In this document: in pieces, positions 40,892-59,804 of the stretch
Position numbering within the stretch: position 1 is the first letter of the stretch
How the letters are laid out: each line of letters begins with the position of its first letter
Assembly: GCF_900102075.1 (NCBI RefSeq)
Contig: NZ_FNAV01000007.1
Location: 124,001-188,000 of the forward strand
DNA length: 64,000 nucleotides
Reading direction: 5' to 3'
Source: Salipiger thiooxidans
GTDB taxonomy: Bacteria > Pseudomonadota > Alphaproteobacteria > Rhodobacterales > Rhodobacteraceae
Translations under genes and position numbers: made by a program
Notes under the pieces: generated by a model
Seen by the model: the letters and a program-made list of their open reading frames with translations, nothing else
Told to the model about the DNA's origin: nothing
Database searches by the model: none

Positions 40892-40895
40892 TACC

Positions 40896-45025: not shown

Positions 45026-45793
45026 TCAGCGCCGGTTGAAGATCACCGCCGCCAGCCAGCCCGCGAGCAGCGCGATCAGCGACGCCGCGATGCCGTAAAG
45101 CAGACCGTAATCCTGCGCGGCCCGGTAGATCAGCCGCTGTACCGAACTCTTGCGCACTGGCAGGTCCACGTCGGAGCGGCTGAGCACCAGCCCGTCCTTC
45201 AGCAGGAACACCCGCACGTCGTAGGTGCCGGGCACGAGGCTCACCGGCAGCGGGATCCGCGCCTCGAAGAGCACGCCCTCGGTGAGCTCGACGATGCCTT
45301 CCTCGAGCGTGATGCGGTGGCTGTCAGCCGTGATCCGGTGCATCGCGTCGATGTAGAGCTGGGTTTCCTCCTCGGTTCCGAGACCGGTGGGGGCGGGGAT
45401 GTAGGTGCTGGGCGCGATGCCGTGGCGCAGGTTCTCGACCGGGTCGACGATCTCGTCCAGCGGGCCGGAACTGGCGACGGTGTAGAAGCTGGGCATCCAC
45501 GCGAACTGGGCTTCGCCGGTGAACACCCAGATGCCCGCGACCTGCTCCTTCTGGCGAAGGGTGGCGCGGCCGGGCGGACCGGTGACGGTGATCACCACGT
45601 CGTAGTCGCCGGGCGTGCCGCCGGCGGGGGCGCCGAAGATCAGCAGCTCGGCGCCGTGGAAGCCGGTGTTGATCTCGACCTCGTCAAGGCTGAGCGCGAA
45701 GGTGGCGCGGGGCGGCTCGGGCGCGTCGTCGGCGGCGATAGCGGGCACGGGCGAAAGCGCCAGCGCGAGGAGAAGCGCCGCGGCGCGCCTCAC
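45026..45793 (-). CDS. TIGR02186-family membrane-anchored periplasmic protein
   Basis: The 255-residue protein has a signal peptide (cleavage near AIA-AD, residue 21), a beta-rich exported domain (about 25-220) and one C-terminal helix (about 232-251) with a short basic tail, so the bulk faces the periplasm. It matches the alphaproteobacterial TIGR02186 family (Alph_Pro_TM), usually found next to TauE/SafE permeases, as here (four-base overlap). Function is not established; a partner or gate for anion export is a reasonable inference. Last gene of the minus-strand sulfatase/TTT operon. Confidence 0.87.
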   Translation of the reverse strand: MRRAAALLLALALSPVPAIAADDAPEPPRATFALSLDEVEINTGFHGAELLIFGAPAGGTPGDYDVVITVTGPPGRATLRQKEQVAGIWVFTGEAQFAWMPSFYTVASSGPLDEIVDPVENLRHGIAPSTYIPAPTGLGTEEETQLYIDAMHRITADSHRITLEEGIVELTEGVLFEARIPLPVSLVPGTYDVRVFLLKDGLVLSRSDVDLPVRKSSVQRLIYRAAQDYGLLYGIAASLIALLAGWLAAVIFNRR

Positions 45794-46695
45794 CGCGTTG
45801 CCTCCCAGAAGAGCGCGAAGGGCTCGGACGGCATGCGGATCAGGTCGACCGCGACCTTGGCGCTGACCGCGAGCACGAGGATCGAGAGCAGGATGCGCAC
45901 CTGCTCGCCGCGCAGCCGGGCGCCGAAGCGGGTGCCGATCTGTGCGCCCACCACGCCGCCCACCAGCAGCAGCAGCGCCAGCACGATGTCGACCGTGTGG
46001 TTGGTAGCCGAGTGCATCACGGTGGTGAAGACCGACACGAAGGTGATCTGGAAGAGCGAGGTGCCGACCACGACCTTGGTGGGCATCTTCAGCAGGTAGA
46101 TCATCGCGGGCAGCATGATGAAGCCGCCGCCGACGCCCATGATCGCCGCGAGCACCCCGCAGAGCACCCCCACCAGCAGCGGCGGGATGGCCGAGATGTA
46201 GAGCCCCGAGGTGCGGAACTTCATCTTGAGCGGCCAGCCCTGTCCCCAGCCGTGGCGGCGCCTGCGGGGCTTGCGGGTGCCGCGCAGGGCGTTGAGGCTC
46301 TCGAAGAACATCATCGCGCCGATGAAACCGAGGAAGACCACGTAGAAGAGCTGCACCGCGAGGTCGATCTGCCCCAGCGAGCGCAGGAAGGCGAAGAGCC
46401 AGACCCCCAGCGTCGATCCCGCGAGGCCCCCCAGCAAGAGCACCGTCCCCATCCGGATGTCGAGCGTCTTGCGGCGCCAGTGGGCCAGCGCTCCGGAACA
46501 GGACGAGGCGACGATCTGCACCGCCTGCGTCGAGACTGCCACTGCGGGCGGAATGCCGATGAAGAACAGCAGTGGGGTCAGGATGAAGCCGCCGCCGACT
46601 CCGAACAGGCCCGACATGATCCCGACGACTCCGCCCAGTCCCACGATGAGGAACAGGTTCACCGGAATTTCGGCTACGGGGAGATAAATGTGCAT
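45790..46695 (-). CDS. TauE/SafE-family permease, probable sulfite/sulfate exporter
   Basis: This 301-residue membrane protein has two halves with the motifs MSGLFGVGGGFILTP (28-42) and MGVGGGFIMLP near 193, each opening a four-helix unit, and a basic middle loop (RGTRKPRRRRHGW near 138-150). It follows a TctA gene by 19 bases and overlaps the TIGR02186 gene. In an operon with a sulfatase, export of released sulfate or sulfite is a sensible role (inference); the family is known for sulfite and organosulfonate export. Confidence 0.9.
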   Translation of the reverse strand: MHIYLPVAEIPVNLFLIVGLGGVVGIMSGLFGVGGGFILTPLLFFIGIPPAVAVSTQAVQIVASSCSGALAHWRRKTLDIRMGTVLLLGGLAGSTLGVWLFAFLRSLGQIDLAVQLFYVVFLGFIGAMMFFESLNALRGTRKPRRRRHGWGQGWPLKMKFRTSGLYISAIPPLLVGVLCGVLAAIMGVGGGFIMLPAMIYLLKMPTKVVVGTSLFQITFVSVFTTVMHSATNHTVDIVLALLLLVGGVVGAQIGTRFGARLRGEQVRILLSILVLAVSAKVAVDLIRMPSEPFALFWEATR

Positions 46696-46714
46696 CCTGC
46701 CCTTGCCTGAGTGG

Positions 46715-48190
46715 TCACATCTTCCTGGAGAGGACCATTACCAGCAGGCCCACGATGCACAACCCGAGAAAGGCCGCAGAGATTGGGGATGTGACGAAGG
46801 TGCTGAAGTCTCCGCGCGAGAGCAGCAGCGCGCGGCGGAAGTTCTCTTCCATCATCGGCGACAGGATGAAGGCCAGCACCAGCGGCGCCGGCGGAAAGCC
46901 GAGCCGCGCCATGATCAGGCCGAAGATCCCGAAACCCAGCACCAGGTAGATGTCGACCACCGAGGAGTTGATCGAGTAGACGCCGATCGACACGAGCACC
47001 AGGATGATCGGGAAGAGCGCGTTGTAGGGCACCTGCAGAAGCCGGGTCCAGATCCCCACGAAGGGGATGTTGAGCAGCACCAGCAGCAGGTTGCCGACGA
47101 AGAAGCTGACCACGAGCCCCCAGAACATCGTCGGGTTCTCGGCGATGAAGGTGGGTCCCGGCGTGATGCCGTGGATCATCAGCGCGCCGATCATCACCGC
47201 CATCACCGCGTCGCCGGGCACGCCCAGCGTCAGCGTCGGGATGAAGGCCGCCTGCGCGGTGGCGTTGTTGGCGCTTTCCGGCGCGGTCAGCCCCTCGATC
47301 CTGCCCTTGCCGAAGAGCTGCGGCACGCGGCTCAGGCGCAGCTCGACCGCGTAGGCCATGAACGAGGCCATGGCGGCGCCGGCGCCGGGCAGGATGCCCG
47401 CCACCGCGCCGATGGCCGAACCGCGGCCCATGGCGGGGACGGACCGGCGCCATTCCTCGCGGGTGGGCAGCATGGTGGAGAAGGTGAAGCGCTCGAAGCT
47501 GGTCGAGTGGCTGCGCATCGCGATGGTCGAGATGATCTCGGAGACGCCGAAGACGCCCATTGCGACCGCCACGATGTTGAGCCCGTCGGCAACCGCGGGC
47601 AGGCCGAAGGTGAAGCGGAAGATGCCCGAGGTGACGTCCTGCCCGACGATGCCGAGGATCAGCCCGATCACCACCATCGAGAGCGATTTCAGCATGTCGG
47701 AGCCGCCCACGGCGGCGGCGGCAAAGAGCGCGAAGACCATGAGCGAGAAATACTCGGCTGCGCCGAACTCGAGCGCGAAGCGGGCCAGCACCGGCGCAAA
47801 GGCCGCGACGAGCACGATGCCCACCATCGAGCCCACCAGCGAGGCGATGGCGGTCATGAAGAGTGCCACCGAGGCGCGGCCGTTCCTGGCCATCGGGTAG
47901 CCCTCGAGGCAGGTGACGGCGGCGGCGGGCGTGCCCGGCAGGTTCAGCAGGATCGAGGCGGTCGAGCCGCCGTATTGCCCGCCGTAGTAGATCCCCGCGA
48001 GCATGATGATCGCCTCGGAGGGCTCGATGTAGAAGGTCAGCGGCAGCAGCATGGCGATGGCGGGCAGCGGCCCGATGCCGGGCAGCACGCCCACGACCAT
48101 GCCGAGGCTGACGCCGATGAAGCAGTAAAAGATGGCCGACCAGCTCAGCGCGATGCTGGCGCCGTCCGCGAGGTTTGAGAGAAGTTCCAT
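46715..48190 (-). CDS. Tripartite tricarboxylate transporter large permease, TctA family (module A)
   Basis: The 491-residue protein has about 12 helices and TctA signatures: the G-V-L-P-G-I-G-P-L-P-A-I-A block near 35-47, Y-Y-G-G-Q-Y-G-G-S-T-A-S-I-L-L-N-L-P-G-T-P near 68-88 and the mirrored G-A-V-A-G-I-L-P-G-A-G block near 260. It moves the substrate across the inner membrane using the ion gradient. It lies in an operon TctC, sulfatase, TctB, TctA, TauE, TIGR02186, so the cargo is probably a sulfate ester (inference). Confidence 0.95.
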   Translation of the reverse strand: MELLSNLADGASIALSWSAIFYCFIGVSLGMVVGVLPGIGPLPAIAMLLPLTFYIEPSEAIIMLAGIYYGGQYGGSTASILLNLPGTPAAAVTCLEGYPMARNGRASVALFMTAIASLVGSMVGIVLVAAFAPVLARFALEFGAAEYFSLMVFALFAAAAVGGSDMLKSLSMVVIGLILGIVGQDVTSGIFRFTFGLPAVADGLNIVAVAMGVFGVSEIISTIAMRSHSTSFERFTFSTMLPTREEWRRSVPAMGRGSAIGAVAGILPGAGAAMASFMAYAVELRLSRVPQLFGKGRIEGLTAPESANNATAQAAFIPTLTLGVPGDAVMAVMIGALMIHGITPGPTFIAENPTMFWGLVVSFFVGNLLLVLLNIPFVGIWTRLLQVPYNALFPIILVLVSIGVYSINSSVVDIYLVLGFGIFGLIMARLGFPPAPLVLAFILSPMMEENFRRALLLSRGDFSTFVTSPISAAFLGLCIVGLLVMVLSRKM

Positions 48191-48211
48191 GACGCCTGTC
48201 TCAGTCCTGTC

Positions 48212-48703
48212 TCAGTAGAGCTTGAAGGGAAGGCCGAAGCCGAGCACGAAGATCACCCAGGCGCCGACCGGCGCCAGCAGCGCGATCACCACGAGCCGCC
48301 TGAGGTCGGGCTTTTCCGCCGCAAGTCCCGAGATCAGCACCAGCGCGAAGGTCGCGATCAGCAGGCCGGCGGTCTCGAGCAGCGCCGCGAAGGCCGCGAT
48401 GCCGAGCGGCACCAGCAGCATCGGCCGCAGCCGGTGCCAGCGCTCGGCCCAGTCGAGGGTCTCGGGCACGGGCGTCTCGGCCTCGTCGCTGCGCACCGGG
48501 AACAGCCCCTGCAGCAGCGTGATCGCCAGCCCCAGCAGGATCGCGCCGGCGCCGAGGAGCATCGGGAAGAAGCCCGCGTCCATGCGGCGCAACGACCCGA
48601 TGCCGTAGCCGAGCGAGGTCACGGTGACGGCGATGCCGATGGCCAGCATGATGGCACCGGAGATCAGCCCGCCCGGATCCGGGGCAAAGGTCCTGCGTGT
48701 CAT
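48212..48703 (-). CDS. Tripartite tricarboxylate transporter small permease, TctB family (module A)
   Basis: The 163-residue protein has four helices (about 13-32, 45-65, 95-125 and 135-158) and the TctB start pattern G-x-I-S-G-A-I-M-L with R-R-M-D-A-G-F-F-P near 40-48 (family G-x-G-x-F-P). I start at ATG 48703, 22 bases after the sulfatase stop; the open frame to the right belongs to the sulfatase gene in another frame. Partner of the TctA at 46715-48190. Confidence 0.9.
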   Translation of the reverse strand: MTRRTFAPDPGGLISGAIMLAIGIAVTVTSLGYGIGSLRRMDAGFFPMLLGAGAILLGLAITLLQGLFPVRSDEAETPVPETLDWAERWHRLRPMLLVPLGIAAFAALLETAGLLIATFALVLISGLAAEKPDLRRLVVIALLAPVGAWVIFVLGFGLPFKLY

Positions 48704-48725
48704 GTCGTTCCTCCCGTGGTCGTGC

Positions 48726-50210
48726 TCAGGCCGATCCCACCGCGACCGCCGGGTCGCTGGCCGGAACCTGCGGATAGTGAAAGCCGCGCTGCCCGGACAG
48801 CCCGCGATTGTCGGGGGTGGTGTCAGCGGGTTCGGGCAGACCCACGAAGCGGTCGCCGTCCACCATCTCGAGATCGCTGCCGTAGAGATGGCCGCGCAGC
48901 AGCGCCTTGAGCCGGTCCAGCGTCTCGGCCTGCGCCGGGTCGGCGGCAAGGTCATGGCCTTCGCGCGGGTCCTCCATCATGTCGAAGAGCTGGAAGCGGT
49001 TGCCGGCGGGGTACCAGATCAGCTTGTGCTGGCGGTCCCGGATCATCCGCGTCGCCTTTGCGCCGGACTGGCTCTCGCCGTAGAGGTGGTCGCGGGTGTC
49101 GGGCGCCAGCAGCGAGCAGCCCTCGACGCCCTCGGGGATGGCCACCCCCGCCATATCGAGCATCGTGGGCATGAGGTCATGCAGCGCCACGAGCCTGTCG
49201 CTGGTGGCATTGCGCCCGATGCGGTCGTGCGTGCGGGTGTCGATGACCAGGAGCGGCACGTTGGCCGAGGCGTCGTACATCAGCCGCTTGCCGAACATGC
49301 CGTGGTCTCCCAGCATGTCGCCGTGATCCGAGCAGAAGACGATGATCGTGTTGTCGAGGATGCCCTCCTCGCGCAGCGTGCCGATCAGCAGCCGGATCTG
49401 GTGGTCGATGTGGGTGCAGAGCGCGTAGAACGCCCGACGGGTGTCGGCGAGCTGCTCGGGCGGCAGCGTCGCGTAGTAGCCCCGGACCGAGCGCAGGAGC
49501 GCCGGCATCGCCGCGGTCTCTGCCGACCAGTCGCTCTCCAGCGGCGCGGCGACGCTGCGCCTTGCGTAGCGGTCGAAGTAGCGCTGCAGCGGCACCAGCG
49601 GCGGGTGCGGGTGGGTGTAGGAGACGTGCCAGAAGCCGGGCCGCGTGGGGTCGCGGCGCCGGATCTGCCGCGCGGCGGTGCGCGTGGTCCAGTTGGTCAC
49701 GTGCAGGTCGTCGGCAAGGTGCCAGGTGTTCCAGCCGTATTCGTTGTTGCTCATGCCGTGGGCGAATTGCTCGCCCGGGTGGCCGGCGTCGGCGAGGGAC
49801 ATCTCGTAATCGTCGGGACCGCCGAGGTGGCCACGGCCTTCCTCGGCCAGCAGCGCGTCGTCAAAGCCGATGCGGTCGCGGGGCGGGTAGACGTGCAGCT
49901 TGCCGATGGCGCCGGTCTGGTAGCCCGCGGCAGAGAAGGTCCCGGCCAGCGTCCGGGCCTTGGCGGGCATGCGCAGCGCAGGCTGGAAATCGCGGTCGCC
50001 GTGGCCGCGCGCGGTGAGGCCTGTCATCATCGAGCGGCGCGAGGGGATGCAGATCGGCGTTTCGGCATAGCAGTTGCGGTAGAGCGTGCCGGAACGCGCC
50101 AGCATGTCGAGCGTCGGGGTCTCTATGTCGGGATGGCCCATGCAGCCCAGCAGGTGTGCGGGCCACTGGTCCACGGTGACGAAAAGGACATGCGGTTGAT
50201 CGGACATCAT
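48726..50210 (-). CDS. Sulfatase (type I, formylglycine-dependent), cytoplasmic, choline-sulfatase-like (module A)
   Basis: This 494-residue enzyme has the formylglycine motif C-x-P-S-R with C54 (ICIPSRRSMMTG), an N-terminal metal Asp in VTVDQ (14) and the second metal block IVFCSDHGDMLGDHG near 285. It would hydrolyse a sulfate ester to an alcohol and sulfate. There is no signal peptide, so it acts inside the cell on an imported ester. Layout resembles choline sulfatase (BetC) but no choline genes are near. It sits between the TctC and TctB genes of one transporter, which argues that transporter and enzyme share a substrate. No formylglycine-generating enzyme gene is in the window. Confidence 0.9.
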   Translation of the reverse strand: MMSDQPHVLFVTVDQWPAHLLGCMGHPDIETPTLDMLARSGTLYRNCYAETPICIPSRRSMMTGLTARGHGDRDFQPALRMPAKARTLAGTFSAAGYQTGAIGKLHVYPPRDRIGFDDALLAEEGRGHLGGPDDYEMSLADAGHPGEQFAHGMSNNEYGWNTWHLADDLHVTNWTTRTAARQIRRRDPTRPGFWHVSYTHPHPPLVPLQRYFDRYARRSVAAPLESDWSAETAAMPALLRSVRGYYATLPPEQLADTRRAFYALCTHIDHQIRLLIGTLREEGILDNTIIVFCSDHGDMLGDHGMFGKRLMYDASANVPLLVIDTRTHDRIGRNATSDRLVALHDLMPTMLDMAGVAIPEGVEGCSLLAPDTRDHLYGESQSGAKATRMIRDRQHKLIWYPAGNRFQLFDMMEDPREGHDLAADPAQAETLDRLKALLRGHLYGSDLEMVDGDRFVGLPEPADTTPDNRGLSGQRGFHYPQVPASDPAVAVGSA

Positions 50211-50242
50211 CCACCTCGGGTAATCGGTACGTTCTTGGAAGG

Positions 50243-50267
50243 CGGGCGCCGGATCGTCCGGCGCCCG
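50243..50267 (-). promoter_or_regulatory. Intercistronic stem-loop between TctC and sulfatase genes
   Basis: CGGGCGCCGGA (50243-50253) and TCCGGCGCCCG (50257-50267) form a perfect 11-bp stem with a three-base loop, 10 bases after the TctC stop. No T-run follows on the minus strand. It probably protects the TctC mRNA or lowers expression of the downstream genes. Confidence 0.55.
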
Positions 50268-50277
50268 CGGGGCGGGC

Positions 50278-51264
50278 TCAGTTGCGGCTGGCGCCCGACA
50301 TCTCGACCAGCTCGCCGAGTGTGCCGGCCTGCTCGGTCACGAAGGCGGTGAAGTCCTCGGGGCTGCCGCCGACAAGGCCGATGTTCAGCGCTTCGAAGCG
50401 TTCCCGGATGTCGGGGCGGCCGAGGATCTCGTCCAGCGCGCCGTTGACCGTCTCGATGATCTCGGGGTCGGTGCCCTTGGGCGCCATGATCCCGTGCCAC
50501 GATGTGTAGACCATGTCGACGCCCTGTTCCCTGACCGTGGGCACGTCGGGCAGGGCGGCGACCCGCTCTTCCGAGGTGACCGCGAGCGCGCGCAGGGTGC
50601 CGTCCTTGATCATCGGCACCACCGTGCCGTCGATCATCACGCCGACCTCGCCGCTCATCAGCGCGGTGCGTGCGGGGGCCGAGCCCTGGTAGGGAATGTG
50701 CAGCGCCTCGATGCCCGCGAGCGAGCGGAAGAGCTCGAAGGCGAGGTGCTGCGCGGTACCGACACCGGCGGAGGCGTAGTCGATATACTCGGGGTCCTCC
50801 TTGGCGCGGGCAATCAGGTCGGGCAGGTCCGCGACCTCTTCCAGACGGGGGCCGACCGCCATCACCAGCGGGATCGAGGTGATCTGGATCACCGGGTCGA
50901 AATCCTCGAGCGGGTCGTAGACGAGGTTGTCGTAGACGTGCGGGTTGATGCCCATGGTGGCGATGTCGCCGACCACGAGCGTATAGCCGTCGGGCTCGGC
51001 GCGCGAGGCTTCGCCCACGCCTACGGTGCCACCGGCGCCGCCGCGGTTCTCGATCACCACGGGCTGGCCCAGCACTTCGGAGAGCGGCTCTGCGAGGGTG
51101 CGCGCGATCAGGTCGGTGTTCCCGCCCGGCGGGTAGGGCACGATGATGTTGACGGGCTGTTGCGGCCAGCCGTCCTGCGCGAGGGCGGGCGCGGCGGACA
51201 GGCCGAACGCGGCGGTTCCGGCCAGCATCAGGGCACGACGGGTGATGGTGAGCATTCGGGTCAA
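50278..51264 (-). CDS. Tripartite tricarboxylate transporter substrate-binding protein, TctC family (module A)
   Basis: The 328-residue protein has a signal peptide with a twin Arg (TRRALMLAGTAAFGL; cleavage near ALAQ, residue 30) and TctC motifs VNIIVPYPPGGNTDLIAR (38-55), NRGGAGGTVGVGEASRAEPDGYT (73-95, a phosphate-loop-like substrate site) and the Y-A-S-A-G-V-G-T-A-Q-H-L block near 163. I use the TTG at 51264, five bases after GGAGGAGG; ATG 51255 is possible but sits 14 bases from it. First gene of the operon and divergent from a LysR gene. Confidence 0.92.
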   Translation of the reverse strand: MTRMLTITRRALMLAGTAAFGLSAAPALAQDGWPQQPVNIIVPYPPGGNTDLIARTLAEPLSEVLGQPVVIENRGGAGGTVGVGEASRAEPDGYTLVVGDIATMGINPHVYDNLVYDPLEDFDPVIQITSIPLVMAVGPRLEEVADLPDLIARAKEDPEYIDYASAGVGTAQHLAFELFRSLAGIEALHIPYQGSAPARTALMSGEVGVMIDGTVVPMIKDGTLRALAVTSEERVAALPDVPTVREQGVDMVYTSWHGIMAPKGTDPEIIETVNGALDEILGRPDIRERFEALNIGLVGGSPEDFTAFVTEQAGTLGELVEMSGASRN

Positions 51265-51347
51265 GGGGTCCTCCTCCTTCGGTCGACGGTCCAGAGTGTG
51301 GGTCTGGATGGAACTGATAAGTGTTGTCAGGGATACCTAATTGGGAA

Positions 51348-51362
51348 ATAAGCGATGCTTAT
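51348..51362. promoter_or_regulatory. LysR-type operator in the TctC/LysR divergent promoter (module A)
   Basis: ATAAGC-GAT-GCTTAT (51348-51362) is a perfect 6-bp inverted repeat and fits the T-N11-A consensus exactly. A related GATAAG lies at 51316-51321, in position to be the weaker activation half-site. The palindrome is 17 bases before the LysR ATG and the pair lies between LysR and the divergent TctC gene. Confidence 0.65.
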
Positions 51363-51379
51363 CATTCGGCGGAGGCACC

Positions 51380-52267
51380 ATGGACACGGGACAGATGCGG
51401 GCGATCGTCGTGCTGGCCGAAGAGCTGCACTTCGCCCGCGCCGCGCGCATTCTCGGGATCAGCCAGCCGGCGCTGTCGCAGAAGATCCAGCGCGTCGAGA
51501 CCGAGATCGGCATGACGCTGTTCGACCGGGGCCAGCGGCACGTGTCGCTGACCCCCGCGGGCAGGGCGCTGGTGGCCGACCTGCCCGAGCTTCTGACCCG
51601 TATCGACACGGTGCTGGCACGGGCCGGGCGCATCGCCCGTGGTGACGAGGGCTTCCTGCGCGTGGGCTTCATCGAGAATGCCAGCTTCCACCTCGTTCCC
51701 CATGTCATCACCCGGCTGCGGCGGCGCTTTTCCAATGCGCAGGTCGAGCTGGTCGAGATGATCTCGCCCGACATTCCCGACGCGCTGGCACGCGGTGACA
51801 TCGACGTGGCGCTGACCCGGCCTTTGCCCACCGACACACTGCGCGCACACGAGGTGATGCGCGAGCGGTACTACGTGGCGCTGTCGGACGGCGACCCGCT
51901 GGTACGGCAGGAGACGGTGCCGGTGCGGGCGCTCTGCGAGATGACCTTCATCGCTGCGGCGGGGCGCAAGTCGTCCTACCTGCGCGGCCAGTTCGCAGCA
52001 CTGTTCGAGCGCCACGGCTTCCGGCTCGGTATCGGGCAGGAGGTCAACCAGCTGCCGGCGATCATCGCGCTGGTGGCGGCGGGGGGCGGCTTCACCATCC
52101 TGCCGCGCTCGGCCACCGGGCTGTCGATCCCCGGCGTCTGCTACCGCCCGATCCGCGACGCGGACGCGCCCGAGGCAGTGCTGCACGCCTGCAGTCGCGA
52201 GCATGACACCAACCCGCTGGTGCAGGCTTTCTTCGCCTTCGCGCTTGAGCTGCGCGGCCAGGGATAG
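51380..52267 (+). CDS. LysR-family regulator (module A)
   Basis: The 295-residue protein has the winged helix MRAIVVLAEELHFARAARIL (6-25) and ISQPALSQKIQRVETEIG, then an effector domain with two alpha/beta lobes. The E-E-L-H-F-A-R-A-A form is typical of the CbnR/BenM-like group that senses small organic acids. ATG 51380 has a GGAGG ribosome site; the in-frame start at 51341 would run through the operator. It is divergent from the module A TctC gene and probably activates it. Its end faces the module B TctA gene with an eight-base gap. Confidence 0.92.
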   Translation: MDTGQMRAIVVLAEELHFARAARILGISQPALSQKIQRVETEIGMTLFDRGQRHVSLTPAGRALVADLPELLTRIDTVLARAGRIARGDEGFLRVGFIENASFHLVPHVITRLRRRFSNAQVELVEMISPDIPDALARGDIDVALTRPLPTDTLRAHEVMRERYYVALSDGDPLVRQETVPVRALCEMTFIAAAGRKSSYLRGQFAALFERHGFRLGIGQEVNQLPAIIALVAAGGGFTILPRSATGLSIPGVCYRPIRDADAPEAVLHACSREHDTNPLVQAFFAFALELRGQG

Positions 52268-52275
52268 GGCCCGGC

Positions 52276-53760
52276 TCAGCGGGCCTTGCGCGGGCGCAGC
52301 GTGGTGACGGTCACGTAGACCAGCATCACCGCCGCGATGGCGAGGATCGTCGCGCTGATCGGGCGCTCGAGGAAGATCATCGGCCCGTCGCGCGACAGCA
52401 ACAGCGCCCGGCGGAAGTTATTCTCGAGCACCGGCCCGAGGATCATGCCGATGATGATCGGAGCCAGCGGGTAGCTGGCCTTGCGCAGCACGTAGCCGAT
52501 GCACCCGAAGGCCAGCATCACCCAGAGGTCGAAGACCGAGTTTTGCAGCGCGTAGGTGCCCATGGTCGAGAGCAGCAGCACCAGCGGCAGCAGCCAGGCC
52601 TTTGGCACCTTGAGCACGGTGCCGAAGAACGGCACCAGCAGGATGCCCAGCACGATCAGCACCACGTTGCTGGCGAGGTAGGCGAGGAAGATCCCGCCCG
52701 CCACGTCGGCGTGGTACTGGAAGAGCTCGGGGCCGGGGAAGAAGCCGAGCAGGAACAGCGCACCCAGCAGCACCGCGGTCGAGGCGTCGCCCGGGATGCC
52801 CAGCGACAGCGTCGGGATCAGCGCGCCGCCGCAGGTGCCGTTGTTGGCGGCCTCGGTGGCCACGACCCCGCCCTCGGCACCCTCACCATAGCCGTCCTCT
52901 TCCGCAGCGAGACGCTTGGCCACCGCGTAGGAGACAAAGGCGCTGACGTCGCCGCCGGCGCCGGGAATGGCGCCGAGCCCGGTGCCCAGAAGGGCCGAGC
53001 GCACCACGTTCCAGCGGTGGTTCACGATCAGGCGCAGGGCGCGGAACGAGATCCGCAGCTTCTGGATCTGCGGCCGGTCACGGAAGTTGCCGCCCTCGAC
53101 CTGCACGAAAAGCTCGGAAAGGGCGAAGAGCCCCACCACCACCGCGACGAGGTTGGGCCCCGAGGTCAGGTTGATGGTGCCGAAGGTGTAGCGGTAGGCT
53201 TGGGTGAACTCGTCGGTGCCGACGGTCGCCACCGCCAGCCCGAGCCCGCCCGCGAGCATGCCCTTGATGGCCGAGCCCTCGGAGACCACGGCGATGGTCA
53301 GCAGGCCGAGCAGCGCCATGGCGGCATATTCCGGCGGGGCGAATTTCAGCGCGAAATCGGCCAGCACCGGCGAGAAGAAGATCAGCACGATGCCCGCGAC
53401 CAGACCGCCCAGAGACGAGGCGGTGATCGAGAGGCCGATGGCGTCCTGGCTGCGGCCCTTCTGGGCCAGCGGGTAGCCGTCGAAGAGCGTCGCCGCCGCC
53501 AGCGGCGTGCCGGGGATGCGCAGCAGGATCGCCGAGATCGAGCCACCGGCGGAGCCTCCGACATAGACGGCGATCAGCATGGCCATGGCGGGGATCGGCT
53601 CGAGGTGGAAGGCCACCGGCAGCAGCAGCACGATGCCCATGAGCGGCCCCAGCCCGGGCAGCACGCCGATGACGAGGCCGCCGATGATGCCGAGCACGGT
53701 CAGCAGGACCGAGGCGGCGGAAAAGTAGAGGGGTGCCCCCTCGAGCAGCAGGTCGAACAC
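52276..53760 (-). CDS. Tripartite tricarboxylate transporter large permease, TctA family (module B)
   Basis: The 494-residue permease has V-L-P-G-L-G-P-L-M-G-I near 33-43, V-G-G-S-A-G-G-S-I-S-A-I-L-L-R-I-P-G-T-P near 67-86 and G-A-I-P-G-A-G-G-D-V-S near 263, the TctA hallmarks. It is the last gene of module B (sulfatase, TctC, TctB, TctA). It differs clearly from the module A permease, so the modules look like old paralogs or separately acquired rather than a recent duplication. Confidence 0.95.
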   Translation of the reverse strand: MFDLLLEGAPLYFSAASVLLTVLGIIGGLVIGVLPGLGPLMGIVLLLPVAFHLEPIPAMAMLIAVYVGGSAGGSISAILLRIPGTPLAAATLFDGYPLAQKGRSQDAIGLSITASSLGGLVAGIVLIFFSPVLADFALKFAPPEYAAMALLGLLTIAVVSEGSAIKGMLAGGLGLAVATVGTDEFTQAYRYTFGTINLTSGPNLVAVVVGLFALSELFVQVEGGNFRDRPQIQKLRISFRALRLIVNHRWNVVRSALLGTGLGAIPGAGGDVSAFVSYAVAKRLAAEEDGYGEGAEGGVVATEAANNGTCGGALIPTLSLGIPGDASTAVLLGALFLLGFFPGPELFQYHADVAGGIFLAYLASNVVLIVLGILLVPFFGTVLKVPKAWLLPLVLLLSTMGTYALQNSVFDLWVMLAFGCIGYVLRKASYPLAPIIIGMILGPVLENNFRRALLLSRDGPMIFLERPISATILAIAAVMLVYVTVTTLRPRKAR

Positions 53761-53770
53761 GGAAGCAGGC

Positions 53771-54259
53771 CTATCCGAAGAGGGTGAAGCTGAAGATGCC
53801 GAGCGGCAGGACCACGTTCAGCAGCCCTTCGAATACGGCCGCCACGAGCAGCGTGGCGGCGATGGCACCGGCGATGGCGGCAAGCGGGCTCAGCCCCAGC
53901 ATCGCGAAGAGAACCGCCAGCAGGACCGGTGTCGTGAGATAGTAGCCGAGCCAGCCGAGGCACAGCAGGTAGACCACGAAGAGCCCCGTCGCGATCAGCG
54001 CGAGCCGCGTGGTCGCGGTGGGATCGAGCGGGGAGCGCTGCGAGATCTGGCCCGCGACGATGCGCAACGCATTGATCAGGCTCAGCGCCAGCAGGATCCA
54101 CGCGATGATCGAGGGATAGGCCGCGGCGTTGGACATCGGCCCGCCCGAGGCCACGCCCTGATCGCTGAGCGAGGTCGCATTCTGCCAGAAGATCAGCAGC
54201 GGCACCGCGCCGATCAGGATCCAGGCAAGCCAGTCATAGGCATGTTCACGCAGCTTCAT
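53771..54259 (-). CDS. Tripartite tricarboxylate transporter small permease, TctB family (module B)
   Basis: This 162-residue protein has four helices: one near 10-30, one near 47-70, and a C-terminal pair near 88-122 and 130-155. S-N-A-A-A-Y-P-S near 43-50 stands where TctB proteins usually carry G-x-G-x-F-P. It follows the TctC gene after a 79-base gap with a stem-loop and precedes TctA by ten bases. Its identity rests mostly on position, size and helix pattern. Confidence 0.85.
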   Translation of the reverse strand: MKLREHAYDWLAWILIGAVPLLIFWQNATSLSDQGVASGGPMSNAAAYPSIIAWILLALSLINALRIVAGQISQRSPLDPTATTRLALIATGLFVVYLLCLGWLGYYLTTPVLLAVLFAMLGLSPLAAIAGAIAATLLVAAVFEGLLNVVLPLGIFSFTLFG

Positions 54260-54289
54260 GACACTCTTCCGGTTGCGGCCAGGGCAGGA

Positions 54290-54316
54290 CGGGCGGCGGC
54301 CGCAGCGTGCCGCCCG
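54290..54316 (-). promoter_or_regulatory. Intercistronic stem-loop between TctC and TctB genes
   Basis: CGGGCGGC (54290-54297) pairs with GCCGCCCG (54309-54316) around an 11-base GC-rich loop, 22 bases after the TctC stop on the minus strand. No T-run. Same arrangement as the stem-loops after the binding-protein genes at 9251, 29938 and 50278. Confidence 0.5.
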
Positions 54317-54338
54317 AATGCGCGTGCCGGGTGACGGG

Positions 54339-55328
54339 TCAGAGCCCGTTCAGGCGCTCGGTTTCCCAGTCGATGGCGGCCTGGCCGTGCTCGAGTTCGC
54401 CCGCGACGGCGCCGACGATCTCTTCGTACTGGTCAGGCGAGAAGCCGGTGGGCACGTAGCCCATGTCGAGCAGGCGCTGGCGCACGTCGTCCCGCTTGAG
54501 GGCTGCTTCCATGGCATCGCGCAGCTTGGTGACGACATCCTCGGGGGTGTCCTTGCGCACCAGCCACCAGTTCCAGCCCGAGGGGCTGAGGTTGGCCATG
54601 CCGATGTCGATGTCGAACGAGCCGACCAGCGGCGCGCCGCCGTAGGTGGCCGAGGCGTCCTCCATATCCGAGAGCACCGCAAGCACTTTCATGTCGTCCT
54701 TGTTGACGTTGTAGACGCCGGGGTTGGTGATCATGAAGTCGAGGATGCCGCCGCGCATGTCGCGCACCGCGATGTCGATCTCGGGGTAGGGCACGAGCTG
54801 GGCGATGGTGTCTGTGGCCATCAGCGTCGCGGCGCCGACCATGTGCGGGATGCCTCCGGCGACGCCGGGGGAGTAACGCAGGTCTCCCGGATTCTCCTTC
54901 ATGTAGGCGATCAGGTCGGAGAGGTCGTTGAACCGGTCGTCATCCGCGCGCACGGCGATGGCGAAGCTGTTCGAGGTGGCGGACCACAGCGGGGTGAAGT
55001 CCTGGTAGGTCCAGTCGGCGTTGCCCTTCATCGGCTGGATCACCAGCGGGGCCACGTAGCCGTCGAACAGGGTATAGCCGTCGGCGTCGCGCGACATGGC
55101 GGTCTCGAAGGCCTTCACGCCGCCGGCGCCGGGGGTCGAGACCACCGAGATGTTCACGCCGAGCTCGTCGCCCATGGCGTCGGCGATCACCTGGCTCGCG
55201 GCCATGGTGGCCCCCGGTGCCCAGGGGTAGATGCTCTCGATGTTGCGCTCGGGGAATTCGGCCAGCGCGGGACCGGCCAGAACGGCGAGCCCAAGGGCCG
55301 CCGCGACGAGGCGAGATGTCAGGGTCAT
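54339..55328 (-). CDS. Tripartite tricarboxylate transporter substrate-binding protein, TctC family (module B)
   Basis: The 329-residue protein has a signal peptide (MTLTSRLVAAALGLAVLAGP; cleavage near ALA-EF, residue 23) and a divergent TctC domain: IESIYPWAPGATMAASQVI in place of the usual V-P-y-p-p-G-G, and TPGAGGVKAFETAMSRDADGYT near 61-82. I choose ATG 55328 with the ribosome site GGGAGG; the ATG at 55346 overlaps the sulfatase stop and lacks one. The altered first motif suggests a ligand different from that of module A. Confidence 0.9.
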   Translation of the reverse strand: MTLTSRLVAAALGLAVLAGPALAEFPERNIESIYPWAPGATMAASQVIADAMGDELGVNISVVSTPGAGGVKAFETAMSRDADGYTLFDGYVAPLVIQPMKGNADWTYQDFTPLWSATSNSFAIAVRADDDRFNDLSDLIAYMKENPGDLRYSPGVAGGIPHMVGAATLMATDTIAQLVPYPEIDIAVRDMRGGILDFMITNPGVYNVNKDDMKVLAVLSDMEDASATYGGAPLVGSFDIDIGMANLSPSGWNWWLVRKDTPEDVVTKLRDAMEAALKRDDVRQRLLDMGYVPTGFSPDQYEEIVGAVAGELEHGQAAIDWETERLNGL

Positions 55329-55342
55329 GAGGTTCCTCCCAA

Positions 55343-56872
55343 TCATGCGGTTACTTCCAGTGCGATCCCGTACCAGCCATAGGTCTCTTCGGGGGCGTCA
55401 TGCGCGCGGAATGCGGCTTCGGCCTCTGCCACGAGCCGGGCCTGAACCTCCGGATCGGTGACCGGCGCTTTCTGCGCCGGGTCGGTTCGGAGGTCGTAGA
55501 GCCGGGTCTCGGCGTCGTCGAACCCGAGACCGTCGTTCATCGGCACCCGCTTGGCATCGGGCAGGGCGTCGATCGCCATCAGCGGCACGCCCTTGGTAAA
55601 GTCGAAGCCCGGCACCATGGCGGCGGTCTTCAGCTCGGTGGTGGTGAAGGGCCCGGTCATGTGCTGCGGCGCGAGCGTGTATTCCCTGAGCCCCGGCGCG
55701 CGCCAGTCCACCGGGTAATGGTAGAGCGCATAACGGCCGTCGGCGATGCCCACCGGCCCGCCGAAGATCCCGAAGATGGCACTGTCGCGCACCTTCTCGG
55801 CCGTGCCCGCCAGCAGCGGCGCCAGGTCATGGGCGCGCACCTCGGGCGGCAGCTCGGCGCCGTGCAGCCCCAGCAGCGTCGGCATGATGTCCGGCGTCTG
55901 GGTGACGGCGCCGCAACGGCTGCCCGCCGCCTGCGGGTTGCGCGGGTCGTGGATCATCAGCGGGATGTGGCTGACTTCCTCGTAATACGGCATCCGGCAT
56001 TTGCCCCACCAGCCGTGCTCGGACAGCAGGAAGCCGTGATCGGTCGACACCACGAGCGCGGTGTCCTTCCACATGTCATGGGCATCGAAATAGTCGAGCA
56101 GCCGGCCGAGATACTCGTCGCACATCGCCACGAGCGCGGCATAGTTGGCGCGGATCTCGTCGAGTTCGGTCGGACTCTCGGTGGCGCGGGCGTAGTAGGG
56201 CCAGTCCAGAGCGCCGCCCTCGTAGTCGGTCGGGAAGGCGTCGCGGAAGCGTTCGGGCGCGTGAAACGGCTCGTGCGGGTCGAAGCATTCGAGCATCAGC
56301 AGCCAGTCGTCGGCCGCGCGGTTGCGCTCGAGGAAGTCGAAACCCGCGGCAAAGCACTTGGGACCGGGGAAGTCGGCCTCGTCTTGCATCACCTCGCGGT
56401 TCACCATGTGCTGGAAGCGCTTGCTCGAGCGGTCGAGCGGGTAGTGCTTGTCCGAGAATTCCGCGCGGAACCTGTCGAGCGGCGGCGCGACCATCGGCAC
56501 CCAGGGGTCGTATTCCTGCCCGCGGATGAATTCCCAGCTGTCGAAGCGGGTGTGGTAGCCGGCGCCGCCATCCTCGAAGTAATGCACGTGGTCTGTGATG
56601 AGGTGCGAGTAGACCCCCTTGTCGCGCAGCACGTCGGCAAAGGAGTTGTCGAAGGCTTCGAGCGGTCCCCATGACCGGTGCATGAAGTTCAGCCGGCCGG
56701 TGTGCAAATCGCGCCGCGCGGGCATGCAGGGCAGCGAACCGGCGTAATGTTGATCGAAGGTCACGGACCGTGCCGCAAGCCGGTCGAAGTTCGGCGTGGC
56801 AATGGCGTCGCCGCCATAGGCCCCGAGCGCCGTCCGGTTCAGGCTGTCGAAAAGTACGAAAACTGTGCGCAT
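55343..56872 (-). CDS. Sulfatase (type I, formylglycine-dependent), cytoplasmic (module B)
   Basis: The 509-residue enzyme has C49 in L-P-C-M-P-A-R-R-D-L-H-T-G, i.e. the less common C-x-P-A-R form of the formylglycine motif, the N-terminal metal Asp 9 (LFDSLNRTAL) and ALVVSTDHGFLLSEHGWWGK near 233. No signal peptide is present. It leads module B and its stop lies 15 bases before the TctC start. Sequence differs strongly from the module A sulfatase, which together with the different TctC argues for a different sulfate ester. Related enzymes of the superfamily include phosphonate ester hydrolases, so a sulfatase role is likely but not certain. Confidence 0.87.
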   Translation of the reverse strand: MRTVFVLFDSLNRTALGAYGGDAIATPNFDRLAARSVTFDQHYAGSLPCMPARRDLHTGRLNFMHRSWGPLEAFDNSFADVLRDKGVYSHLITDHVHYFEDGGAGYHTRFDSWEFIRGQEYDPWVPMVAPPLDRFRAEFSDKHYPLDRSSKRFQHMVNREVMQDEADFPGPKCFAAGFDFLERNRAADDWLLMLECFDPHEPFHAPERFRDAFPTDYEGGALDWPYYARATESPTELDEIRANYAALVAMCDEYLGRLLDYFDAHDMWKDTALVVSTDHGFLLSEHGWWGKCRMPYYEEVSHIPLMIHDPRNPQAAGSRCGAVTQTPDIMPTLLGLHGAELPPEVRAHDLAPLLAGTAEKVRDSAIFGIFGGPVGIADGRYALYHYPVDWRAPGLREYTLAPQHMTGPFTTTELKTAAMVPGFDFTKGVPLMAIDALPDAKRVPMNDGLGFDDAETRLYDLRTDPAQKAPVTDPEVQARLVAEAEAAFRAHDAPEETYGWYGIALEVTA

Positions 56873-56923
56873 TGCCCCTCCAGTCCGCAGGAGAGCATGG
56901 ACGAAGTGCGGTGATAGTGTAAA

Positions 56924-56959
56924 ATAGATAAACCGCTGCCAAAGATAAATCTAATCTAT
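56924..56959. promoter_or_regulatory. Candidate LysR-binding region between module B sulfatase and LysR genes
   Basis: In the 100-base divergent gap ATAGAT (56924-56929) and ATCTAT (56954-56959) form an outer inverted repeat, with AGAT-AA-ATCT (56943-56952) inside and the direct repeat AGATAAA at 56926 and 56943. Such nested dyads at 15-30-base spacing are common for LysR tetramers. The exact site is uncertain. The region is much more AT-rich than its surroundings. Confidence 0.45.
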
Positions 56960-56972
56960 CGAACTGGCCCTC

Positions 56973-57908
56973 ATGTCGCCCTACGATGCCTTTCTGAGCC
57001 GCCGGCTGCTGCACTTTCTCGCCGCGGCGGACGCGGGCAACCTCCACCGCGCCGCCGAGACGCTGGGCCTGTCGCAGCCGGCGCTGACCGTGAGCCTGCG
57101 CAACCTCGAGCAGGAGATCGACGCCACGCTCTTCGAGCGCTCGGTGAAGGGGGTCACGCTGACCCCGGCGGGAGAGCTGTTCTACCGCCACGCCGGTGCC
57201 CTGCGCACCGCCTCGCGGCAGGCGCAGGATGAGCTGAAGGCGCTGCGCACCGGCGAGGCGGGCACGCTGCGGATCGGCGCCGGGGTGGCGTGGTCCGCGA
57301 CGGTGCTGCCCGAGGTGCTGCGCGACATGCGGCGGGACTACCCGGGCCTCTCCATCGACCTGCTGACCGGGGTCGGAGACCAGCTGGCCATGCAATTCGC
57401 CGAGGGTCGGATCGACCTCTTGCTGGTGGCGGGCGGGTTGGCCGGGCAGCCGCTGGAGGATGCGCGGCGCGAGCAGCTGGTGACCCTGCCGATGGAACTG
57501 GTGGTGGCGCGCGATCACCCGCTGGTCGGGCAGGGGCCGGTCGGCGTGCGACAGATCGCGGGCTACGACTGGGTCGGCTTCGCCGATGACGACAGTTTCC
57601 TGCATCTTTCGGCGCTGCTGACCGCGCGCCACGGCCTCGCGCCGCCGCGGATGGCGATGCGGGCCAATTCGGTCGCCGCCCTCGGCACCTTCGTGCGCGG
57701 CACCGATGCGGTCATGGTGGTGATCTCGTCGCTGGCTTCGGCGATGTGCGACGAGACCCTCGTGACCCTGCCGCTGCAGGAGCCGCTCTGGGACATGCCG
57801 GTGAGCCTCTTCTGCCGCGAGCTGGTGGCGGGCCGCCCGGTGACGCTGGATTTCACCGAACGGCTGCGCCGTGCCATCGAGACCGTGGTCGCGCAGGGCC
57901 ATGCCTGA
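56973..57908 (+). CDS. LysR-family regulator (module B)
   Basis: This 311-residue protein has the winged helix RRLLHFLAAADAGNLHRAAE (10-29) and LSQPALTVSLRNLEQEI, followed by an effector domain beginning near residue 95 (GTLRIGAGVAWSAT). It is divergent from the module B sulfatase gene and is the likely controller of sulfatase, TctC, TctB and TctA there. A 1.36-kb region without protein genes follows. Confidence 0.92.
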   Translation: MSPYDAFLSRRLLHFLAAADAGNLHRAAETLGLSQPALTVSLRNLEQEIDATLFERSVKGVTLTPAGELFYRHAGALRTASRQAQDELKALRTGEAGTLRIGAGVAWSATVLPEVLRDMRRDYPGLSIDLLTGVGDQLAMQFAEGRIDLLLVAGGLAGQPLEDARREQLVTLPMELVVARDHPLVGQGPVGVRQIAGYDWVGFADDDSFLHLSALLTARHGLAPPRMAMRANSVAALGTFVRGTDAVMVVISSLASAMCDETLVTLPLQEPLWDMPVSLFCRELVAGRPVTLDFTERLRRAIETVVAQGHA

Positions 57909-59605: not shown

Positions 59606-59804
59606 GCGTGTGAGAGGGCAGCGCAGTCATTCACGAGACAACGGCAGCATACCTCTCATCAACCGAAGGTGATTGGCCCTCGACCCGCTTTCGGGAGACG
59701 TACGGACCGATGCACAGCGCCACGCCGTTCCGCGGCCCAGCTTCGTCGTGTCCATCAATTACCCATTGCCCTGTCGATCCAAACCCGCCAACGGGCCCGG
59801 AGCC

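Follow-up and report, generated by a model that had tools for sequence, protein, structure and literature searches.

Gene content of the two modules

The window, the whole 64,000-nucleotide stretch of DNA analysed here, from the marine-type bacterium Salipiger thiooxidans, carries twelve genes between positions 45026 and 57908, all of them present and open. The original prediction described two neighbouring modules, each combining TctA, TctB, TctC, a sulfatase and a divergent LysR regulator, with a TauE/SafE permease and a TIGR02186 protein as extras in module A; the open genes and profile matches (PF01925 and PF09608 for the extras) bear this out. The Pfam search took in ten window proteins, with sulfatase B and LysR B outside that set. 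LysR B matched NCBIfam LysR models below their cut-offs, so its assignment is at the family level only. The features are as follows:

45026..45793, minus strand: TIGR02186/Alph_Pro_TM family protein (PF09608, 200.8 bits; cut-off 24.5)
45790..46695, minus strand: TauE/SafE permease (PF01925, 180.9 bits; cut-off 32.6)
46715..48190, minus strand: TctA, module A (PF01970, 502.7 bits)
48212..48703, minus strand: TctB, module A (PF07331, 65.3 bits; start chosen, MTRRTFAP)
48726..50210, minus strand: sulfatase A, 494 aa (PF00884, 134.9 bits)
50278..51255, minus strand: TctC, module A (PF03401, 229.3 bits)
51256..51379, no strand: divergent promoter region with a candidate LysR box
51380..52267, plus strand: LysR regulator, module A (PF03466 and PF00126)
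52276..53760, minus strand: TctA, module B (PF01970, 469.4 bits)
53771..54259, minus strand: TctB, module B (PF07331, 50.5 bits)
54339..55346, minus strand: TctC, module B (PF03401, 76.6 bits)
55343..56872, minus strand: sulfatase B, 509 aa (NCBIfam matches; PF00884, 107.4 bits in the genome search)
56973..57908, plus strand: LysR regulator, module B (family-level NCBIfam matches below cut-offs)

The likely true starts of TctB, TctC and LysR in module A lie at 48703, 51255 and 51380, respectively. At 51349-51361 lies a perfect inverted repeat, TAAGCGATGCTTA, that agrees with the LysR box T-N11-A as a pattern match only; further T-N11-A matches are present within the same promoter stretch. Base composition gave no signal of acquisition (0.685 and 0.680 G+C for the modules vs 0.684 for the window). 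Next to the modules, the window holds neither recognised catabolic enzymes nor a formylglycine-generating enzyme (FGE).

Leaderless sulfatases

Both sulfatases enter their first beta-strand by residue ten (A, MMSDQPHVLFVT; B, MRTVFVLFDSLN), which leaves no room for a signal peptide. Both combine the PF00884 fold with the CxPxR motif recognised by FGE, as formylglycine-dependent (type I) sulfatases do, and the same genome encodes an FGE (one PF03781 match, contig C49, 186324-187142, 252.8 bits). Sulfatase A carries CIPSR (C54), GKLH (K104 and H106), D295, H296 and K308. In the alignment of its clade, C54, K104 and H106 were found in all 20 rows and D295, H296 and K308 in at least 19; one row reads CLGAR at the C54 motif. 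The corresponding motif of sulfatase B is CMPAR, whose cysteine (residue C49) was conserved in all 29 rows covering that position. Sulfatase B has TDHVH in place of the usual GKxH, a replacement that characterises its clade ([TS]DHxH in 29 of 30 rows, DHLQ in one).

Both enzymes fell below the cut-offs of the family models for choline sulfatase (TIGR03417; A 206.0, B 102.6, cut-off 433.45), arylsulfatase (PRK13759, NF010322; A 398.0, B 106.6, cut-off 481), manganese-dependent arylsulfatase (NF052527; A 252.1, B 53.2, cut-off 850) and the phosphoric/sulfuric ester hydrolase PehA (NF045661; A 165.2, B 128.0, cut-off 900). A PehA identity was dropped on this last score. By sequence, the best PDB relatives of sulfatase A were EfAS (9KOQ, 226.8 bits) and BT1918 of subfamily S1_46 (7OZ8, 224.4 bits); excerpts of the report on EfAS describe it as active on phosphate and phosphonate esters too (PMC12421950). 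The structural model of sulfatase B was moderate (mean pLDDT 76.7, with residues 47-74, including C49, below 50) and matched sulfatases and phosphonate monoester hydrolases (PMHs) alike, so the model leaves the chemistry of this enzyme unsettled.

Importers and binding proteins

TctA, TctB and TctC are encoded together in both modules, all above the Pfam cut-offs, as is characteristic of tripartite tricarboxylate transporters (TTT). Both TctC proteins have N-terminal leaders, as judged by eye. The TctC motif PFxAGGxxD holds the ligand carboxylate and is described in excerpts of a review as almost ubiquitous, if not strictly defining (PMC5812351). TctC-A keeps it, as PYPPGGNTD. TctC-B has PWAPGATMA at this position, and GGxxD is missing from 12 of 12 B-type rows, the window's included. 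Arg157 is present in the same 12 rows, and an arginine occupies that position in several other TctC proteins too, so it is not diagnostic. Among 394 genomes, B-type TctC gave nine matches in eight genomes, the window's included. Eight of these have a B sulfatase next to them; the remaining one adjoins an SDR gene and a gene of the enolase superfamily with a distant likeness to sugar-acid dehydratases.

Recurrence of the importer-sulfatase pairing

The original prediction called for a neighbour search in other genomes, and there the pairing recurred. TctA lay within 5 kb of 13 of the 19 sulfatase-A homologues and 13 of the 29 sulfatase-B homologues, against one of 74 distant sulfatases, a control set drawn mostly from Rhizobiales and unmatched for TctA density. 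The host's own genome, with 14 TctA and ten PF00884 matches in all, agrees with this control: the two window sulfatases have a TctA gene within 5 kb, and the other eight PF00884 matches, two of which are probably fragments of a single gene, have none. The association of TTT genes with these sulfatases thus goes beyond chance. The remaining homologues (6 of 19 for A, 16 of 29 for B) had no TctA within 5 kb, nor did the weaker homologues at loci L216-L218 and L250-L252; relatives without a TTT usually had an ABC or TRAP importer nearby.

Gene calls in relatives came from a simple script and are rough. In Jannaschia (locus L083) both modules are adjacent with their order swapped, and on the Salipiger abyssi plasmid pPABY1 both lie beside one shared FGE gene. 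The cassette is plasmid-borne in several relatives. FGE genes were also found near homologues in Jannaschia, Chelativorans and others, inside the clusters of several relatives, from which we infer that the modules may be coupled to FGE.

Taken together, the missing leaders, the recurrent TTT linkage, the swapping of importers and the FGE genes beside relatives' modules argue for import of the intact ester followed by desulfation in the cytosol, a predicted route that genomics by itself supports well. The leaderless enzymes and TTT linkage uphold that part of the original prediction; its substrate class did not fare as well.

The TauE-TIGR02186 pair

The TIGR02186 protein passed PF09608 and missed the NCBIfam model TIGR02186 (138.8; cut-off 255.25). 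By eye, it consists of a leader, a periplasmic beta-rich part and a C-terminal membrane helix. Its model was confident (mean pLDDT 89.5), and the fold search gave no convincing match: the seven matches at E <= 0.001 were GM2 activator proteins with TM 0.21-0.33. Lower-ranked matches reached TM 0.50 on the target's length.

PF09608 occurs in 96 of 100 genomes of the host's family, and TauE stood beside it in all 30 family loci fetched, with 62-70% identity to the window TauE. A second pair is present in the host's genome on contig C42, and the copy in module A appears to be a recruited second copy of this family-wide pair. Its near-universal presence in the family and its absence from the Jannaschia and Psychromarinibacter modules (loci L083 and L082) rule out the pair as an essential module part and make anion export optional at most.

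Neighbouring genes and proposed function

Genes beside the modules of relatives point to sugar-acid catabolism. Between the two modules of S. abyssi lie an IlvD/Edd dehydratase (PRK13017, 976.8; cut-off 684), a KdgK-like kinase and an FCD/GntR regulator; the window has no such insert between its modules, and a 73% identical relative lies on contig C49. At locus L215, sulfatase and TTT genes are followed directly by L-threonate dehydrogenase (421.0; cut-off 350), 3-oxo-tetronate kinase (543.9; cut-off 350) and decarboxylase (285.2; cut-off 250) genes, and Paracoccus seriniphilus has the same order by annotation, tetronate links that rest on homologues only 47-48% identical. A gluconolactonase-family gene follows the TTT genes at locus L232. 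Several other sugar-acid-like neighbours scored under curated cut-offs. For one neighbour cluster the name aldose epimerase was dropped, as the member tested matched DUF4432 in Pfam. SulP sulfate permeases within 5 kb at loci L089, L203 and L247 suggest that sulfate is a product.

We propose, with a probability of roughly 60%, that each module is an uptake-and-desulfation cassette for sulfated sugar acids (aldonate, tetronate or similar), a class that is our best guess given the links in relatives to tetronate, aldonate and polyol catabolism. The periplasmic TctC would capture the sulfated acid, TctAB would carry it in whole, and the cytosolic, FGE-matured type I sulfatase would strip the sulfate. 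The desulfated acid would then pass to dehydratase/kinase or tetronate pathways, a step that we infer from the relatives. The divergent LysR may sense the substrate or its product, and in module A the recruited TauE-TIGR02186 pair probably helps expel surplus sulfate or sulfite. The ligand, the regulation, and the direction and anion of TauE transport are all predictions.

The modules might instead take up neutral sulfated sugars or polyols (e.g., sulfated rhamnose, fucose or mannitol) and remove their sulfate, the TTT having shifted to ligands whose sulfate stands in for the carboxylate. The missing carboxylate motif in all 12 B-type TctC rows would fit such ligands. So would several neighbourhoods: B homologues occur together with DUF4432 genes and, often, with sugar ABC systems; in P. 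seriniphilus p449297 a B homologue has genes annotated as gluconolactonase family, L-rhamnose mutarotase, amidohydrolase and D-mannonate oxidoreductase beside it; and at locus L081 L-iditol 2-dehydrogenase (409.3; cut-off 338) accompanies a 70% identical A sulfatase within a polyol ABC operon. The polyol operon and the sugar ABC systems indicate that carboxylate substrates are no requirement for the sulfatases. However, TctC-A keeps its carboxylate motif, and several TTT-linked relatives adjoin dehydratase, tetronate or lactonase genes, a sign that acids or lactones are handled; we consider neutral substrates unlikely, at about one chance in four.

Another reading, that the hydrolases are of the PMH or PehA type, with phosphate mono- or diesters or phosphonates as their substrates, and that the TTT imports such esters, is improbable. 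The shared superfamily, the promiscuity of EfAS, the loss of GKxH from sulfatase B and the ambiguous model of that enzyme would allow it, as would a weak, sub-threshold match of TctC-B to the phosphonate-binding family PF12974 (21.1; cut-off 27). Near B homologues, ABC ATPases bear the annotation ugpC, a name that comes from glycerol-3-phosphate uptake but is given rather freely to the ATPases of sugar ABC systems. Against this reading, both enzymes scored far under the PehA cut-off, sulfatase A keeps GKxH, and sulfate suits the SulP and TauE neighbours better than phosphate does.

Scavenging of choline-O-sulfate or of aryl or alkyl sulfates, substrates put forward for assay in the original prediction, found little support and is very improbable. 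In its favour, sulfatase A scored 398 on an arylsulfatase model (cut-off 481), homologues are often named arylsulfatase in their sources, one 49% identical B homologue is annotated choline-sulfatase, and there are known cases of choline- and arylsulfatases that work in the cytosol alongside ester importers. Against it, both enzymes missed the choline-sulfatase cut-off, and where neighbours in relatives are informative they belong to sugar-acid, sugar or polyol metabolism.

Relation to known systems

Import of intact esters for cytosolic desulfation is established for the Pseudomonas arylsulfatase AtsA with its ABC importer AtsRBC and for the choline sulfatase BetC with its transporters. Those systems use ABC or other importers for aryl or choline esters in sulfur or osmolyte supply, whereas the modules of the window use a TTT and have sugar-acid genes as neighbours in relatives. 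Tetronate operons (L-threonate/D-erythronate, with DUF1537 kinases) share the enzymes found directly behind the sulfatase and TTT genes at L215 and in P. seriniphilus; unlike them, the window has no recognised tetronate genes next to its modules. To our knowledge, tetronate operons as described contain no sulfatase. Excerpts of the report on EfAS mention no TTT importer (PMC12421950).

The closest parallel within the TTT family is SlcHFG, listed in excerpts of a review as the 3-sulfolactate importer of Roseovarius nubinhibens and Chromohalobacter salexigens (PMC5812351). Like the ligand proposed here, 3-sulfolactate is an anion that bears both a carboxylate and an oxidised sulfur group. However, 3-sulfolactate is a C-S sulfonate for which no sulfatase is needed, and the sulfatase inside the window's operons points to O-sulfate esters. 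The novelty claimed for a sulfate-ester TTT would therefore hold for sulfate esters but not for organosulfur anions at large, given SlcHFG. Our literature searches returned no TTT for sulfate esters and nothing on such an importer-sulfatase module.

For the sulfated-sugar-acid cassette, a bolder and decidedly tentative extension, which we consider unlikely, is that a TTT branch dedicated to these acids, a TctC-B that binds the sulfate group itself and the DHxH sulfatase clade could together form a hitherto undescribed way of using sulfated sugar acids from the sea inside the cytosol.

In the usual picture of how bacteria use sulfated carbohydrates, the sulfatases act outside the cytoplasm. A recurrent importer-sulfatase cassette would mean that cells also import sulfated acids or sugars of small size intact and, if so, sulfate esters would join the known ligand range of the TTT family. 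The cassette would also point to concrete candidate ligands, and its tetronate-linked version opens the question of the ligand to a direct test. A TctC gene beside a leaderless sulfatase gene may also serve as a signature for spotting users of sulfated metabolites in genomes.

Two adjacent transporter–sulfatase modules

Gene calls and family profiles placed two adjacent modules at window positions 45026-57908, each combining TctA, TctB and TctC of a tripartite tricarboxylate transporter (TTT) with a sulfatase lacking a signal peptide and a LysR regulator, which is the arrangement described in the original prediction:

Module A, minus strand: TctC, sulfatase A, TctB, TctA, TauE and TIGR02186, with a divergent LysR
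Module B: sulfatase B, TctC, TctB and TctA, with its own divergent LysR

A gap of 8 bases separates the end of the module A LysR gene from the end of the module B tctA gene. The first beta-strand aligns at or near the start of both sulfatases, leaving no room for a signal peptide in either. The genome comprises 5.87 Mb in 68 contigs (the window lies on contig C26), and by protein similarity its closest named relative is Salipiger abyssi (95% for sulfatase A, 89% for sulfatase B), which makes a Salipiger-like member of the Roseobacteraceae the probable host.

Beside module A, at 40881-44668 (+), is a hydantoinase/caprolactamase-like gene pair, apparently unrelated to the modules, whose first gene scored 491.4 bits against the caprolactamase alpha model (cut-off 1000). 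An MsbA-like ABC exporter (458 bits, cut-off 602) lies beyond module B at 59673-61679 (+), and no convincing gene was found among the ORFs called at 58.0-59.6 kb.

Conservation of the TTT–sulfatase linkage

Profile searches of the contigs yielded 14 TctA and 10 PF00884 matches in this genome; by coordinates, TctA lay within 5 kb of both window sulfatases and of none of the other eight PF00884 matches. Among homologs from other genomes, a TctA within 5 kb accompanied 13 of 19 in the A clade (identity at least 44%) and 13 of 29 in the B clade (at least 41%; window excluded from both), compared with 1 of 74 control sulfatase homologs of less than 40% identity. TctA and sulfatase shared a strand in 12 of the 13 cases in each clade (exceptions: loci L084 and L231). 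Fisher tests against the control gave 1.4e-10 (A) and 7.4e-8 (B), values that are only rough: the control, mostly Rhizobiales, was not matched for TctA density, nor are related loci independent.

The 19 A loci combine 6 from the homolog search that also gave the 74 controls with 13 from the family-genome search, whose other four rows were three weaker homologs (L216-L218, 35-37%, none with TctA nearby) and one from genome G446, left out of the 19. The 29 B loci came from the control-yielding search (2), the family-genome search (20) and another homolog search (7); the family-genome search gave 28 rows for B, one being the window and seven weak or partial rows being left out of the wide-stretch count. 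TctA was absent near the weaker B homologs L250-L252 (34-36%; outside the 29). Some relatives' stretches are clipped by contig ends or by the chosen borders, and the miss scored for L212 is borderline: its stretch starts 94 bases before the sulfatase, and the TctA of L211 on the same contig is 4.9 kb away.

With the binding protein as the starting point, a search of 394 genomes for B-type TctC (E <=1e-50) gave 9 matches in 8 genomes, counting that of the window, and a B sulfatase adjoined 8 of the 9. The ninth (L301) neighbors an SDR gene and an enolase-superfamily gene whose distant similarity to gluconate/galactonate dehydratases (116.3 bits, cut-off 750) indicates class only.

Exchange of importers

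The 16 B homologs without nearby TctA were accompanied by sugar-type ABC genes in ten cases (L223, L224, L235, L237-L240, L243-L245), a TRAP system in one (L229), oligopeptide-type ABC genes in two (L241, L242) and only an ABC permease-like gene, 4.5 kb away, in one (L249); no recognized importer was found beside L246 (a 4.2-kb contig) or L248. Binding-protein families were assigned by Pfam for L229, L235, L239, L241 and L242, and by similarity for the remaining loci. Eight of 64 plasmid records, chosen among the best 40, provide named examples: B sulfatases are TTT-linked in Chelativorans and Martelella mediterranea, and sugar-ABC-linked in S. meliloti, Roseibium, Neorhizobium, Nitratireductor, Martelella NC20 and P. 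seriniphilus p449297. Among the six A homologs without nearby TctA, L081 lies in a polyol ABC operon and L204-L206 have other ABC genes (L205 with an additional DctM-like match), and no importer genes were seen beside L208 or L212. A Paraburkholderia A homolog has MFS and porin genes. A leaderless hydrolase with varying importers would be expected if the substrate is imported before hydrolysis.

A DUF4432 protein, a candidate enzyme for sulfated sugar, recurs near B-type sulfatases with sugar ABC importers (L223 by Pfam; L306, L308 and L312 by annotation; L224, L235, L237 and L238 by similarity). On the S. meliloti M162 plasmid accessoryA (L307), cysD, cysN and a sulfotransferase gene are found near a B-type sulfatase with sugar ABC genes, so sulfate esters may be both formed and cleaved by the products of neighboring genes. 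A 25.5-kb Klebsiella pneumoniae plasmid (NZ_CP032171.1, 13584-14417) holds a partial sulfatase A match (57% of the query, 63.6% identity).

Active sites and activation

Sulfatase A has the canonical residues C54 (CxPxR), K104 and H106 (GKxH) in 20 of 20 aligned rows, and D295, H296 and K308 in at least 19 of 20. In sulfatase B, C49 within CMPAR is found in all 29 rows covering it; [TS]DHxH replaces GKxH in 29 of 30 rows (DHLQ in the remaining one), and D94, H95 and H97 are invariant across the window protein and 33 close homologs. Genes for formylglycine-generating enzyme (FGE), which activates sulfatases, are found no more than 5 kb from A or B homologs at eight loci (L083, L203, L204, L206, L210, L211, L216, L231) and are annotated near those of S. 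abyssi and Chelativorans; this genome has one FGE match, on contig C49. SulP sulfate permeases occur within 5 kb at L089, L203 and L247 (two by Pfam). Sulfate is therefore the likely product, although EfAS, the best PDB match of sulfatase A, illustrates superfamily promiscuity (PMC12421950), and TctC-B matches a phosphonate-binding family at a score under the threshold.

Relation to known systems

Import of an intact ester followed by desulfation inside the cell is established for aryl and choline sulfates, systems that follow the same general plan with importers other than TTT. The sulfate-ester role had been proposed as new for TTT systems, and no TTT–sulfatase module appears in the titles and abstract openings of the open-licence literature searched. 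This novelty is narrowed by SlcHFG, a TTT for the organosulfonate sulfolactate listed in a review (PMC5812351). The case for both modules rests wholly on genomics.

Candidate substrates

Five lines of evidence suggest a sugar-acid substrate. The insert between the S. abyssi modules encodes an IlvD/Edd dehydratase scoring 976.8 bits (cut-off 684), a KdgK-like kinase that at 230.1 stays under its cut-off (400), and an FCD-type GntR regulator. At L215, an A-type sulfatase (48%) and TTT precede L-threonate dehydrogenase, 3-oxo-tetronate kinase and decarboxylase genes, all above cut-off, and an isomerase just under it (267.3 vs 325); P. seriniphilus p420573 (sulfatase 47%) has the same annotated gene order, and the two loci are possibly not independent. 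At L211, a PdxA-like gene (241.4, cut-off 290.35) stands between a second TTT and two further sulfatases only 27-28% like sulfatase A, and at L232 a gluconolactonase-family gene lies behind a B-type TTT. Finally, TctC-A keeps in alignment the loop PYPPGGNTD, a type that binds the carboxylate of the ligand via two waters in TctC structures, according to the same review (PMC5812351). Enolase-superfamily genes near L084, L214, L218, L236 and L244 all scored under curated cut-offs and indicate class only.

Module B speaks against a simple carboxylate rule, since this loop is missing from TctC-B in 12 of 12 aligned rows and neutral-sugar genes often lie beside B relatives. Our best guess from these comparisons would be sulfated sugar acids for module A, and sulfated sugar acids or sulfated sugars for module B.

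Apparent recruitment of TauE–TIGR02186

The TIGR02186 protein belongs to PF09608 (window 45026-45793), a near-universal TauE partner in this bacterial family (L253-L282). Its predicted model has beta-rich parts and a C-terminal helix, and a structure search returned no clear fold match. Of 100 family genomes, 96 have PF09608, as a single copy in every other listed genome and two copies in this one, and TauE adjoins it in 30 of 30 loci examined. This genome's other pair lies on contig C42, and its TauE shares 67% identity with the S. abyssi module copy. Among the best 120 of 193 matches, close (85%) relatives of the module A TIGR02186 protein came only from one Rhodobacteraceae MAG and two Salipiger species. 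In the Salipiger lineage, module A thus seems to have recruited a second copy of a family-wide pair; a putative role in the export of excess sulfate or sulfite would fit.

Co-occurrence and probable mobility of the modules

On S. abyssi pPABY1 the order is LysR, FGE, LysR, module B, the three-gene insert, LysR, and module A with TauE and TIGR02186; two more sulfatase genes and a sugar ABC system are a few kb off. This further pair (L309, 203263-208349) lies near the same FGE, and the plasmid's island for sulfated carbohydrates includes at least four sulfatases. An uncultured Jannaschia (L083) has the two modules next to each other in swapped order and followed by an FGE, with A and B sulfatases 70% and 71% identical. 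Nearer home, contig C49 (L287, 169-189 kb) holds sulfatase pieces near the genome's FGE match, a short piece of TctA interrupted by a stop, and a gene 73% identical to the S. abyssi dehydratase, all within ~16 kb, possibly a decayed third cluster.

Homologs at E <=1e-60 were found in 14 (A) and 21 (B) of 393 other family genomes, and both in 5, against 0.75 expected (p ~4e-4). Six A/B pairs among the 120 A and 120 B homologs listed had a longest contig of the same size (45455, 86215, 1976413, 756675, 30380, 27449), suggesting linkage; the 45455 pair is the only one inspected. Because G375, the sole other genome of the genus in the sample, has neither homolog at E <=1e-60 and the S. abyssi JLT2014 copy is plasmid-borne, the module island is patchy and probably mobile.
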